The translations under genes were made by a program, and so were the position numbers. This document shows positions 26,660-33,568 of a DNA stretch of 64,000 nt, piece by piece. Position 1 is the first letter of the stretch; every line of letters starts with the position of its first letter. The notes under the pieces are model-generated. The model was not told the DNA's origin and searched no databases. It saw only the letters and a program-made list of their open reading frames with translations. This DNA comes from Isosphaera pallida ATCC 43644 (GTDB lineage Bacteria; Planctomycetota; Planctomycetia; Isosphaerales; Isosphaeraceae): the NCBI RefSeq assembly GCF_000186345.1, contig NC_014962.1, forward strand, positions 4,988,450 through 5,052,449. Reading direction: 5' to 3'.

Positions 26660-27865
26660 TTACGCGCTAGGCAGGGGGTGGTCGTCGTTGTGATGAAGGG
26701 CGAGCAGGTCGTCGAGGCGTTGGCGGATAAACGACTCGATATTAGCGGCGACGCGTTCGTAGTCGTGGGCGTCGCCGCCGAAGGGGTCGGCCACGTCGCA
26801 ACCCTGGGGATCAAGCAGCGTAACCTTAGGTTCCAGTTCAGGCAGGTGGTCGATCAGGGCCTCAGCGTGGGCGGCGGTCATGGTTAAAATCCAGTCGGCC
26901 TGGCGGACCAATTCCAGCGAGATGGGCTGGCTGAGGTGGTCTTCCAGGTGGATGTTCCGCCGTTTCATGGCGTCGATGGCGTGTTCGGAGGCGGGTTGCT
27001 GCCAGTGGGCGGCGAGCCCCGCGGAGGCGATGACGAAGCCGCGTTGGGGCAGTTCCTCGGGAGGGCAACCCAAACGTTCAGCCAGAAGTTTTCGGCAGAG
27101 CGCCTGGGCCATTGGGCTGCGACAGGTGTTGCCGGTGCAGACGAAGAGGACGAAGATGCCGGCCATGCGTTGCAGCTGCTCCAACGAGAAGGTGCCGGGT
27201 TGGGTGATCCGCCAGCCAGTCGTGCTGAGCGTCACCTCGGTGACGCGCTGTAGACCGAATCGGGGACCGTCATCCAAAATCAAATCAGCTCCCCTGGGGG
27301 ATTCGCAAGAACGGGGGGGTGGGGGGTCCGTCTTGGCTGAGGGGGGGGACTCCAAGAGTTGGCGGGCCCGATCCGGGGTCAGACAGGCCAACACCACAGG
27401 ACCGGAGGTCCAGCGGATCAGATCGCGCGGGAGGGAGTGGCCAGGCGAACGGAATGTCCAGCGGCCGTCGCCGCCGCGGAGGCGTCGTCGTTGCTCGGGT
27501 GTCAGCGCCTGGGGCAGGCGTTCGGCGGTCCACGCGCCGGGTTCCCAGGTCAGCGTCAGGGGGCCTGGCCAGGCGCGTCGCGCTAAACGTCGGCCCACCC
27601 GCGAGTCGGTTGCGATCCAGTCCTCCAGTTCCTCGGCGGTCCTCAAGGCGATCGGGAGCGGGTCGTCGTCTGGCAACCCCGCCAACTGTCGGAGGCGATC
27701 CAGCGCCGGGGTGGCTAGCGCCGAGGCGGCCGCAGCGTAACCGGTTTCGGTGGGGAGCACCGCCACGCCTCCCCGGGACAAGCAGGCCACCGCCCGGAAC
27801 ACCTCGTCGAGGCGATCGACCGACTTGCTCAGATCGATCGTCTCGACCGCCCGTTTGGGTGCCAT
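26660..27865 (-). CDS. Fusion: degenerate TsaC/YrdC domain + LMW protein-tyrosine phosphatase
   Basis: A 401-residue two-domain protein. ATG 27865 follows GGAGGG with 7-base spacing. Residues 20-225 match the Sua5/YciO/YrdC (threonylcarbamoyl-AMP synthase) fold: LPTETGYAAAA, RAWPGPLTLTW, FRSPGHSLP, LILDDGP. However, the nucleotide-binding KxR is replaced by AGL (62-64) and the SAN motif by LAC in VVLACLTP, so tRNA t6A synthesis is unlikely. Residues 238-401 are a complete low-molecular-weight phosphatase: P-loop Cys243-TGNTC-Arg249 (VCTGNTCRS) and general-acid Asp360 (DVADPFGGD). Separate sua5-like (ywlC) and LMW-PTP (ywlE) genes are neighbours in Bacillus, so the fusion mirrors known linkage. 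Confidence 0.88.
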   Translation of the reverse strand: MAPKRAVETIDLSKSVDRLDEVFRAVACLSRGGVAVLPTETGYAAAASALATPALDRLRQLAGLPDDDPLPIALRTAEELEDWIATDSRVGRRLARRAWPGPLTLTWEPGAWTAERLPQALTPEQRRRLRGGDGRWTFRSPGHSLPRDLIRWTSGPVVLACLTPDRARQLLESPPSAKTDPPPPRSCESPRGADLILDDGPRFGLQRVTEVTLSTTGWRITQPGTFSLEQLQRMAGIFVLFVCTGNTCRSPMAQALCRKLLAERLGCPPEELPQRGFVIASAGLAAHWQQPASEHAIDAMKRRNIHLEDHLSQPISLELVRQADWILTMTAAHAEALIDHLPELEPKVTLLDPQGCDVADPFGGDAHDYERVAANIESFIRQRLDDLLALHHNDDHPLPSA

Positions 27866-28244
27866 CACGCGACCCTCCGAACTTCTACTGTCCGCTTAAC
27901 GTTGGGAGATGACCCAGTTCCCCGCGCCTGGATGTCGCCTTGGTCGCGTCGCGTCGGGGGTTCCAATCATCGGTTGTCTGCTCGAAAGACGAAGCCAGCT
28001 CCCACTGCACTGACACGCGGGGAGCGCGCCGGTGTCGGTCGGTCACGGCTCGGCGCTCTGGACCGAGGGACGATTGGTTACCCCCCCTTAGCTCGATGGT
28101 ATTGGCGGGGAAAGAAAAGAACCACCCTCTTCAGATCCAAGCTCGTTAGGAATTCTAGGGACCAACTTCTAACTTGGCCAGTCCCGCGTCGGTCGAAACG
28201 CGGCCGGTCACCCTGCCCCACTCCACCGTTTGAGGCCGAGCGGT
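27866..28244. other. Intergenic stretch, no supported gene
   Basis: About 380 bases upstream of the fusion gene. It contains a loose GCGCCG/CGGCGC pairing (28026-28056). No promoter could be called with confidence. Confidence 0.5.
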
Positions 28245-29611: not shown

Positions 29612-29843
29612 TGGGGGCGTGGGGACGAAGGCCGAGCCGCCAGGCCAGGCCAGGCGCGCCAAGTCGGTCTGGTCCAATTCTTGGTGGGATGTTAGGGTCG
29701 CGCCGGTTCGGTTCGATTCGATCCCGCCCAGGTGGGGCGGCCAATAGTCATGTCGAAGAGCGTGACGCCGAGCCGAGCCAAGCTAAACCGAACCGAACCA
29801 CGGATGGAATCTCGGTTTTCCGTCAATCAAGGGAGTGGTTGCC

Positions 29844-31148
29844 ATGACGCGCGCGCCTCAACACATGCACGTCGCTCGGGGCCCGCACGCGGGTCTTGGT
29901 CGGAAGGAGGGGGTCGGAATCGCGGCTTGCCGTTCGGGGTTGGCGACGCGGGCCGTGGTCGTCGCGGTTTTGCTGACGGCGCTGGGGGCGGGGGCGGGTC
30001 TGCCGGGTCCCTCGCCTGCCTCGGCTCAGCTTGGCGGCGTCTTTGGCCGTCGCGACGCCAAGCCGCCCGCTCAACCACCTCAGGACCGCAAGATCATCAC
30101 TGCCGCGGATCAAATTCCCGAACCTCTGGACCCTTCACAGATTCCACCAGCTCAGATCGCTCTCCCTACCGAGCCGATCGACCCTTATCTGCTGCCGAAA
30201 GAGGCTGGTCCCTTCATGGTGCTGGCTCACACCTTCCGAGGACCCGACGCGGCCGCCTACGCTCAACTGCTGGCGATGGAGTTGCGAAAAGCGTTCGGAT
30301 TGCCGGCCTGGGTCTACTATCAGAAAATCAAGCCCGGCGGCAGCAACATCCAGGGCGTCCCCCCCACCGTCACCGAGGAAAACGCCGTCGCCGAACAATC
30401 GCTCAAAGGTCAGGAACGCTATCGCATCTACGATGAAGCCGCTGTCCTGGTAGGCGAGTGTGCCTCGGTTGACGAAGGCGAAGCGCTGCTCAAAAAGGTC
30501 AAGAAACTCAAGCCCGAATGTCTTCAGCACATCCCCACGATTCTCCCGTGGCGCAAGAAGGACTTGAGCCGGGCGATTCTCACGGTCAATCCCTACGTGC
30601 CGGCCGAGAAGCTCATGACCCGCAAGAAGGATCCGCTGATCGACCGGATGAACCAAGGCCCCTACTCGATCTTGAAGAATCCGGGCCCGTTCACCCTTCA
30701 GGTCGTGGAGTTCTCGGGGCGGTCTGCCTACATGCTCAATGGCGATCGACTGCTCCAGGATAAGGAGTCGTTCAAGGATTCCCCGTTGAACGACGCGGCC
30801 GACAACGCGGTGCGTCTGGCGGAGCGGTTGGCGTCCGACCCGGAATTCCGCAAGCTGGGAATCGACGTGTATGTGTATCACGACCGCAACAGCAGCCGGG
30901 TGACCGTCGGCGCTTTGCCCACCGACAATCCAGACGATCCCCGCTCGCTGGCCCTGGCCAAGAAAATGATGGAGATCGTCACCCGGTTGAGCGTTGAAGG
31001 ACTTGATCCCGCCAAGCTTCAGAACAAGGTCGATGGCCGGGTCGCCCGCGCGGGATTGGCCGTGAGGCTGACCAACGACCTGTTTGGCAGCAAGAAGCTC
31101 GACGCTCCGATCATTTTCACCCCCACGATCCTGCCGGTTCCCCGTTGA
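29844..31148 (+). CDS. Secreted protein with SPOR-like segments, function unknown
   Basis: A 434-residue exported protein. ATG 29844 follows GGGAG. The N-terminus is long and basic before a hydrophobic signal stretch (ATRAVVVAVLLTALGAGAGLPG) that ends near ASAQLGG. A Pro-rich linker follows, then mixed alpha/beta sequence. YDEAAVLVGECASVDEGEALLKKVKKLKP has the strand-helix pattern of a SPOR-type domain, and SRVTVGALPTDNPDDPRSLALAKKM may be a second copy. That resemblance is an inference. It lies between rph and rdgB, a linkage that may be lineage-specific. Confidence 0.72.
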   Translation: MTRAPQHMHVARGPHAGLGRKEGVGIAACRSGLATRAVVVAVLLTALGAGAGLPGPSPASAQLGGVFGRRDAKPPAQPPQDRKIITAADQIPEPLDPSQIPPAQIALPTEPIDPYLLPKEAGPFMVLAHTFRGPDAAAYAQLLAMELRKAFGLPAWVYYQKIKPGGSNIQGVPPTVTEENAVAEQSLKGQERYRIYDEAAVLVGECASVDEGEALLKKVKKLKPECLQHIPTILPWRKKDLSRAILTVNPYVPAEKLMTRKKDPLIDRMNQGPYSILKNPGPFTLQVVEFSGRSAYMLNGDRLLQDKESFKDSPLNDAADNAVRLAERLASDPEFRKLGIDVYVYHDRNSSRVTVGALPTDNPDDPRSLALAKKMMEIVTRLSVEGLDPAKLQNKVDGRVARAGLAVRLTNDLFGSKKLDAPIIFTPTILPVPR

Positions 31149-31988: not shown

Positions 31989-32070
31989 GTGAAACAAAAC
32001 GCGCTGATTCAATTGTGGGACGATTCTTCGATTGAGATGGGCTGCGTCACGGTCCTTGACGAGGAGGCTC

Positions 32071-32766
32071 ATGGCGACAAGGAGGGCGGCTGGACCAATT
32101 CGTTTTGGTTTCCGTGCAACGTTGCTACTCCAAGCGGGGTGGGCAAGACGAGCCTGGACGCTCACGCTTATCTGCGCGGGATGGGCCGCCTGGTTGTGGT
32201 GGGACGATTGGTTCGAGAAACGGGTCGTCGTGATCGAGCCGGGGGGACTGGTGCGGGGAGCCTGGCAAAAACCCGGTCCGTTGCGCAGACTCCTGGAACG
32301 CGAGGGAATTCGGTCGATCGTCACCTTGACCGCTATCAATCCCGATGACCCCAAGTATGTCGGTCAAGCCAACGCGCTGGCCGGGGTGGGTCGGCCGATC
32401 CGCTGGATTCAGCTCGATTGGCGTGGCTCCACCGCGACGCTGGAACAAATGGCTCAGGCGGCCGATCTGTTGGCCGATCAGTCGTTGAGGCCGATCTTTT
32501 TCCACTGCGTGGCGGGCCATCACCGCACCGGGCTGGCTCATGCGGCCTATCTGATTCGGCATCGCGGTTTCACCGCGGCGCAAGCCTGGGACCAGTTAAG
32601 TCGGTTGCCCTGGACCGATCCCGACCATCCCCGCGATCGGGCCGATCGAGAGTTGATCCGCCGATTCGAGGCGTGGAATGCGCAGCAGTCACGCCCAATT
32701 TATGTTCACGTGAACCACGACGGTCCCCCTCAGGCGAAGCCCGGCGATCGGCGGCGAGGATTATGA
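32071..32766 (+). CDS. Membrane-anchored dual-specificity phosphatase, copy 1
   Basis: A 231-residue protein. GAGGAGGCTC before ATG 32071 decides the start. One N-terminal membrane helix (about residues 27-45, TLTLICAGWAAWLWW) anchors a catalytic domain with the PTP/DSP P-loop HCVAGHHRTG (Cys146, Arg152). The family opening motif VIEPGGLVRGAWQKP and the central LTAINPDDPKY loop are visible. It belongs to the planctomycete tyrosine phosphatase/DSP group. Four bases separate it from copy 2, so the pair is one transcription unit, probably with rdgB. Topology, cytosolic or periplasmic, is not settled. Confidence 0.85.
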   Translation: MATRRAAGPIRFGFRATLLLQAGWARRAWTLTLICAGWAAWLWWDDWFEKRVVVIEPGGLVRGAWQKPGPLRRLLEREGIRSIVTLTAINPDDPKYVGQANALAGVGRPIRWIQLDWRGSTATLEQMAQAADLLADQSLRPIFFHCVAGHHRTGLAHAAYLIRHRGFTAAQAWDQLSRLPWTDPDHPRDRADRELIRRFEAWNAQQSRPIYVHVNHDGPPQAKPGDRRRGL

Positions 32767-32770
32767 TGAC

Positions 32771-33568
32771 ATGACGCTCCAGAAACGAGTGAGGAATGGG
32801 CTCGACATCCGAGGACACCATCGCACGACCACGCGGCCGCGTCCCGGCTGGCGGGTCTGGGCGGGGCGTCTGATGCTGCTGGCGGGGTTGGCGGTGGCGG
32901 GGTTTGTCGGTTGGCGTGTGGCGATCGGCAACTTCGCGGTCATCGAGCCGGGCGAGCTGTATCGCTCAGCCCAACTCTCCGCGGCCCAACTCGATCGCGT
33001 CATTGCCGATCACGGCATCCGCGCCGTCCTCAACCTTCGCGGACACAACCCCGACGAACCGTGGTATCGCAACGAAGTCGCCACCACATTGAAACGAGGC
33101 GCGACCCAAATCGATGTGGCCATGTCGTCGTGCGACTGGGCTTCGCGCGCTCAGATGAACGAAATTGTGCGCATTCTCGAGACCGCCCCGCGGCCGTTGT
33201 TGATTCACTGCTGGCACGGTTCGGAACGTACCGGCTTGGTTTCGGCTCTAGCGATTCTGCTGCGTCCTGGATCGACTTTGGAGGAAGCCGAACGCCAATT
33301 TTCCTGGCGCTATTTGTATGTGCCGTTCGGTGATGGCGTGACCACCTACGCGCACCTGAAGCAGTACAAACATTGGTTGGAGCGAACCAGACGCCCCCAC
33401 ACCCCCGAAACCCTCAAGGACTGGGTCGGCAATCATTTCCGGCCAGGATTTCCCAGCCGCGAGCATTGGCCCTACGATCCGTATCCCTTGAGCGTGATTA
33501 CGCGGGTTGAACCAAGTTCAGAGGCGCGAACAGCCGTGAACTCGGAGTCCCCACCCCGATGGCGTTGA
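32771..33568 (+). CDS. Membrane-anchored dual-specificity phosphatase, copy 2
   Basis: A 265-residue paralog of the preceding gene. One N-terminal membrane helix (about residues 30-52, LMLLAGLAVAGFVGW) is followed by the shared FAVIEPGELYRSAQL opening, VLNLRGHNPDEPWY, a candidate general acid Asp122 (SSCDWAS) and the P-loop HCWHGSERTG (Cys147, Arg153). It carries a C-terminal extension of about 70 residues (HTPETLKDWVGNHFRPGFP...) absent from copy 1. The two copies are diverged in sequence, so the duplication is not recent. Substrate, protein or lipid/phosphoinositide, is unknown. Confidence 0.86.
   Translation: MTLQKRVRNGLDIRGHHRTTTRPRPGWRVWAGRLMLLAGLAVAGFVGWRVAIGNFAVIEPGELYRSAQLSAAQLDRVIADHGIRAVLNLRGHNPDEPWYRNEVATTLKRGATQIDVAMSSCDWASRAQMNEIVRILETAPRPLLIHCWHGSERTGLVSALAILLRPGSTLEEAERQFSWRYLYVPFGDGVTTYAHLKQYKHWLERTRRPHTPETLKDWVGNHFRPGFPSREHWPYDPYPLSVITRVEPSSEARTAVNSESPPRWR

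Follow-up and report, generated by a model that had tools for sequence, protein, structure and literature searches.

In the window analysed here, a stretch of 64,000 nucleotides, a single gene encodes a protein in which a domain of the YrdC/TsaC fold is followed by a low-molecular-weight (LMW) phosphatase, and this locus raises the question of what such a protein does when its first half has lost its catalytic residues. The reading that we consider quite probable, judging from sequence, is that it is a YwlE-type protein-arginine phosphatase with a retired TsaC domain at its N-terminus, and that it descends from a bifunctional ancestor in which the first activity was displaced by Sua5.

Architecture of the fusion gene

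The gene occupies positions 26660-27868 of the window on the minus strand, stop codon included, in a single and uninterrupted frame that encodes 402 aa from a GTG start; an in-frame ATG at 27865, one codon after the GTG, is the end that the first-pass annotation had given to it. Both halves are recognized by Pfam, with PF01300 (Sua5_yciO_yrdC) matching residues 30-160 (8.5e-16, 58 bits, model positions 3-122 of 178) and PF01451 (LMWPc) matching residues 240-383 (7.7e-27, 95 bits). The YrdC/TsaC-fold half, which is catalytically degenerate, comprises residues 8-237 (27158-27847, minus strand), as delimited by PF01300, a TIGR00057 match below its cut-off and VIA-align, and the LMW-PTP half, of the YwlE type, comprises residues 238-395 (26684-27157, minus strand), as delimited by PF01451, VIA-align and the closest solved sequence, B. 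subtilis YwlE (7e-20). An AlphaFold2 model of the fusion (pLDDT 91.7) contains both folds, with a low-confidence segment at residues 183-189, and the YrdC half aligns with P. abyssi Sua5 (6f89_B) at a VIA-align Z of 21.6 over 203 residues. Homologues spanning both halves, mostly at 35-46% identity, are found in most of 99 related genomes, and these, together with the confident model of the two folds, argue that the fusion is not a product of chance. The first-pass annotation, which had proposed a fusion of this kind and a YrdC half that keeps its fold, is borne out on both points.

The neighbourhood of the gene is uninformative, as of the seven neighbouring genes that were followed DUF493 alone recurs, at 9 of 49 loci extending over 9 kb or more, and an Rfam search of the 64-kb window gave no match. 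Elsewhere in the window, on the plus strand, two adjoining genes at 32032-33568 each match dual-specificity-type phosphatase families, and a 437-aa open reading frame at 29835-31148, located between genes of the RNase PH and Ham1 families, has no Pfam match.

The TsaC active site and the presence of Sua5

Synthases of threonylcarbamoyl-AMP (TC-AMP) carry a tetrad formed by KxR and SxN that has been used as a family filter (PMC10321239). In alignments of the window protein, AGL (residues 63-65; 27674-27682, minus strand) stands at the place of KxR and CLT (residues 162-164; 27377-27385, minus strand) at the place of SxN, where the Sua5 of the same genome reads KGR and SAN, respectively, and PTETGY (residues 39-44) and WPGPLTL (residues 100-106) are both kept, just as had been described from the sequence at first sight. 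An insert at residues 165-178, directly after CLT and near the low-confidence segment of the model, is absent from 98% of retired copies and from all aligned intact relatives. With TIGR00057 (cut-off 123.2) the window copy fails at 55 bits, whereas the genome's own Sua5, at C2:1629497, passes at 184.7 bits, as do the two intact fusions tested (153 and 155 bits). The window copy consequently has the YrdC fold of a TC-AMP synthase and neither the tetrad nor the family score. The second intact gene for which a search had been proposed is present, which rules out the fusion as the genome's sole tsaC. Coexistence of TsaC and Sua5 has been described as rare and unstable (PMC10321239).

Full-length matches to the fusion occur in many of the 294 Planctomycetota genomes searched, to which a scan of named genomes added Neorhodopirellula, Rubripirellula and Phycisphaera-type records, and single-frame fusions are also present in Candidatus Omnitrophota. 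When genomes judged too incomplete were excluded, SxN was kept in 63 of 63 fusions from genomes where no standalone Sua5 was found, as against 6 of 70 from genomes that have one (Fisher 3e-31). An apparent exception, G062, with a degenerate fusion and seemingly no Sua5, turned out to hold a C-terminal piece of Sua5 at one end of a contig of 4,519 bases, and it was counted among the 70 Sua5-bearing genomes because its Sua5 is cut by the contig end; before this reassignment the figures were 63 of 64 versus 6 of 69 (1e-29). When families are counted instead, the ratio of SxN kept to lost is 32:0 without Sua5 and 2:7 with it (p 1.6e-6). These sequences are not independent and the association partly reflects shared ancestry, since on the well-supported branches of a short, 154-column phosphatase-domain tree only four independent contrasts remain, 2.4 of them on average in the expected direction and none in the opposite one (p 0.5). 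Parsimony on the best tree, without regard to direction, gives 12 changes of SxN and 17 changes of Sua5 presence.

Fusions that keep SxN, and mostly KxR as well, are found in the Planctomycetia groups f6, f7, f8 and f11 and the greater part of f5, as well as in the majority of the genomes sampled from other classes. In these SxN-keeping genomes PF01300 detected no other TsaC/Sua5, the fusion occurring either alone or with a long HypF-size frame, and a recheck with a Sua5 query was negative in 19 of the 20 genomes of this kind to which it was applied, several of them closed, and positive in all three controls. As a marker KxR is less reliable than SxN, its Arg being absent from 9 of the 63 fusions without Sua5. 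The first-pass annotation had suggested a survey of homologues for shared loss of KxR and the SAN loop, and had regarded retention of KxR as evidence against its reading. The loss is indeed shared by most Sua5-bearing genomes, but many homologous fusions retain both motifs. Most of the latter come from genomes in which the searches gave no further TsaC/Sua5, and they account for the degeneration instead of speaking against it.

Two further observations concern individual genomes. Five fusions, L066 (G074), L056 (G092), L153 (G120), L160 (G302) and L170 (G322), keep K, S and N next to a standalone Sua5, the one in G322 reading SCN, and the six Sua5-bearing genomes with SxN kept could represent transitional states or contamination of metagenome-assembled genomes (MAGs). 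In addition, near-identical and strongly diverged fusions occur in two genera (L072 in G016 and L077 in G015, the latter genome having a second, ordinary copy), a likeness that may be due to bin contamination.

The fusion, the lost motifs and their association with Sua5, the YwlE-type P-loop and the presence of McsB can be read directly from sequence. From these we infer that the planctomycete ancestor of the protein probably had two functions, its TsaC half supplying threonylcarbamoyl-AMP to TsaD for t6A synthesis and its YwlE half probably reversing the arginine phosphorylation carried out by McsB. In lineages bearing Sua5, that of the window included, the TC-AMP active site of the fusion would have been mostly lost while the fold and the phosphatase stayed under selection. 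In the organism of the window, TC-AMP would presumably come from Sua5, and the fusion would dephosphorylate the phospho-arginine proteins of McsA/McsB.

The retired YrdC half

Retired YrdC halves do not behave as pseudo-domains, because their fold is kept and their dN/dS is below 1, ranging from 0.04 to 0.47 in 15 measurable pairs and lying well below 1 in most close pairs. Inactivating drift of this half was rejected on the same values, of which that of one pair reaches 0.47. Within the band of 40-50% phosphatase identity, YrdC halves are 27% identical if retired and 37% if intact, and W100, P101, G225, G33 and other residues are conserved at 86-100% in retired copies; D18 and R98 are likewise better conserved in the retired copies of Planctomycetia than in the intact fusions of other classes. 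Most simply, the YrdC half of the window protein would serve as a structural or docking module.

It has been reported that TsaD of B. subtilis is phosphorylated at Arg282 by McsB, protected by YwlE and degraded by ClpCP (PMC7546277), and this control provides a reason for joining TsaC and YwlE. A narrower proposal is that the retired half docks onto TsaD or other t6A proteins and so aims the phosphatase at them. The B. subtilis case speaks for it, as do the succession of TsaC and TsaD in the pathway and the selection still acting on the fold; TsaD and TsaB are both present in the genome of the window, but tsaD is located at C2:464194, far from the fusion, and docking of this particular kind is conceivable yet rather doubtful.

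The first-pass annotation favoured a sensor or regulatory domain controlling the phosphatase, and in the form of a ligand sensor, for a nucleotide, threonine or tRNA, we regard this as unlikely. Such a role would be consistent with a fold that is confidently kept at dN/dS below 1, and also with the conservation of D18 and R98 at 93% and 97% in retired Planctomycetia copies (83% and 100% in intact ones), even though the genome's own Sua5 does without these residues; among the intact fusions of other classes no residue prevails at position 18, where the commonest letter reaches 27%, and R98 drops to 55%. On the other hand, the old pocket positions 63, 65, 105, 162-164 and 209 drift in retired copies without a new consensus, unlike what a repurposed pocket would show. 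The data are explained more economically if Sua5 displaced the domain and its fold was retained for structure or docking.

Arginine phosphorylation and relation to known systems

In the phosphatase half of what we take to be a YwlE-type enzyme with a retired TsaC domain, the P-loop CTGNTCRS (residues 244-251; 27116-27139, minus strand) and the general acid Asp361-Pro362 (26783-26788, minus strand; DPFG from 361) are retained, as had been noted earlier. It has been shown that position PX5 of the P-loop sets selectivity, with Thr, as in YwlE, favouring phosphoarginine and Ile, as in PtpA, favouring phosphotyrosine (PMC8001253); the residue of the window protein is Thr248. Thr is found at this position in 124 of 133 aligned homologues and in 63 of the 64 that have lost SxN and belong to Sua5-bearing genomes, all 64 of which carry the DP acid. 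In structural comparison YwlE (4etn) ranks first (VIA-align Z 25.3, rmsd 1.2, 144 residues, 35% identity), with other LMW-PTPs scoring close behind.

The putative substrates of this activity would be generated by a kinase that the genome also encodes, its McsB passing NF002194 at 424.8 bits (cut-off 385). Upstream of mcsB lies a McsA-like gene whose match, at 115.8 bits under the cut-off of 210, spans nearly the whole length, and the fusion is the only LMWPc protein of the genome above cut-off. Between mcsA and mcsB a second McsA-like gene of 231 aa (L275:2769-3464, minus strand) shows weak McsA and UVR matches. The McsB family was detected in 98 of 99 relatives of the same family or class and in 60 of 60 genomes of other classes, by a search whose negatives are imperfect, as it missed B. 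subtilis in the control set (0/14); with McsB present nearly throughout the phylum, finding it in a given genome is in itself hardly informative. Four Planctomycetia genomes have McsB and no match to the fusion, and carry smaller separate LMWPc-domain proteins instead.

A mirror image of the window protein is provided by two closed genomes of one genus (G256 and G267), in which the TsaC half is intact, being in G256 the sole PF01300 match, and the phosphatase half of the fusions (L189, L288) retains neither the P-loop Arg, the loop reading CEANTLSS, nor the general acid, where EP is found. The McsB proteins of these genomes (L286, L287) lack SxRxR, the NEED motif, the Arg after GTG and the RGLxGEG motif, which we take to be catalytic motifs of phosphagen kinases, and the sister genus (G185) retains all these phosphatase and McsB motifs. 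This joint decay, which counts as one event, supports the McsB pathway as the role of the phosphatase, and the lineage seems to have abandoned arginine phosphorylation while retaining both proteins.

The initial designation as a tyrosine phosphatase has therefore to be revised. A conventional protein-tyrosine phosphatase akin to Wzb or PtpA, to which a vestigial domain is attached, would belong to the same LMW-PTP family, and the best NCBIfam match of the phosphatase half is in fact Wzb, although at 61 bits it falls far under the cut-off of 243; with Thr in place of Ile in the P-loop, YwlE as the best match in both sequence and structure, mcsA-mcsB in the genome and the joint degeneration just described, this alternative is improbable, and the phosphatase half is probably a protein-arginine phosphatase. 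To our knowledge, most of what has been reported on protein-arginine phosphorylation comes from Gram-positive bacteria; a kinase-phosphatase pair for protein arginine is here predicted in most Planctomycetota genomes examined.

The fusion links this phosphatase with the enzyme that starts a universal tRNA modification, and it is an independent reason to take the control of B. subtilis TsaD by McsB/YwlE seriously. As a tentative extension, the TsaC-YwlE fusion of Planctomycetota and Omnitrophota might directly couple t6A synthesis to arginine phosphorylation, with the retired TsaC of Sua5-bearing lineages aiming the phosphatase at TsaD. It also represents a natural experiment on retention after catalysis, in which a universal enzyme has shed its active site in the presence of a second copy and persists as a folded domain. 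Planctomycete proteins annotated by one half only, as Sua5/YciO/YrdC family or as LMW protein-tyrosine phosphatase, would have to be sorted into three classes, namely bifunctional, phosphatase-only and TsaC-only.

TsaC-like domains have been described in fusion with SUA5, HypF and TobZ (PMC10321239). In a search of the open literature no paper was found that names both 'TsaC' and 'YwlE', and titles and opening lines of abstracts yielded no description of a YrdC-LMW-PTP fusion; each domain is known, and the bifunctional fusion, its breadth and its two-way degeneration appear to be undescribed there. The LMW-PTP of T. tengcongensis (4egs), which matches the fold at Z 25.2, bears the PDB molecule name RpiB, which points to a second enzyme, but this is ribose-5-phosphate isomerase and not YrdC. 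With TsaC/Sua5 (TIGR00057) the window protein shares the YrdC fold, and intact fusions among its relatives score above the family cut-off and are the sole member found in many genomes, whereas the window copy lacks KxR and SxN, scores under the cut-off and stands beside an intact Sua5. That it still makes TC-AMP or a related carbamoyl-adenylate through altered residues is highly improbable, for even though PTET and WPGP are present and some fusions without Sua5 lack the KxR Arg yet presumably must work, none of K, R, S and N remains here, Sua5 is intact and TIGR00057 fails.

The closest counterpart of the preferred reading, a YwlE-type phosphatase behind a retired TsaC domain, is YwlE of B. 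subtilis (4etn, 4kk3), which has the same LMW-PTP fold, CTGNTCRS with Thr, the DP acid and McsA/McsB in the genome, but stands alone, at about 150 aa, and is not fused behind a YrdC/TsaC-fold domain. The same two activities are also paired in some Firmicutes, as Sua5-YwlE fusions of 536-549 aa of the Candidatus Fermentithermobacillus type (L254, L264) and as adjacent separate genes in Peptococcaceae (L249) and Christensenella (L253); adjacent Sua5/TsaC and YwlE genes occur as well in a Gemmatimonadetes MAG and one Omnitrophota MAG, so that the pairing of TsaC/Sua5 with YwlE is a recurrent one. The fused protein L254 is a full-length Sua5 with a SUA5 domain, whereas the fused part in Planctomycetota is of the TsaC type and without this domain, and the Firmicutes fusions possibly have a separate origin.
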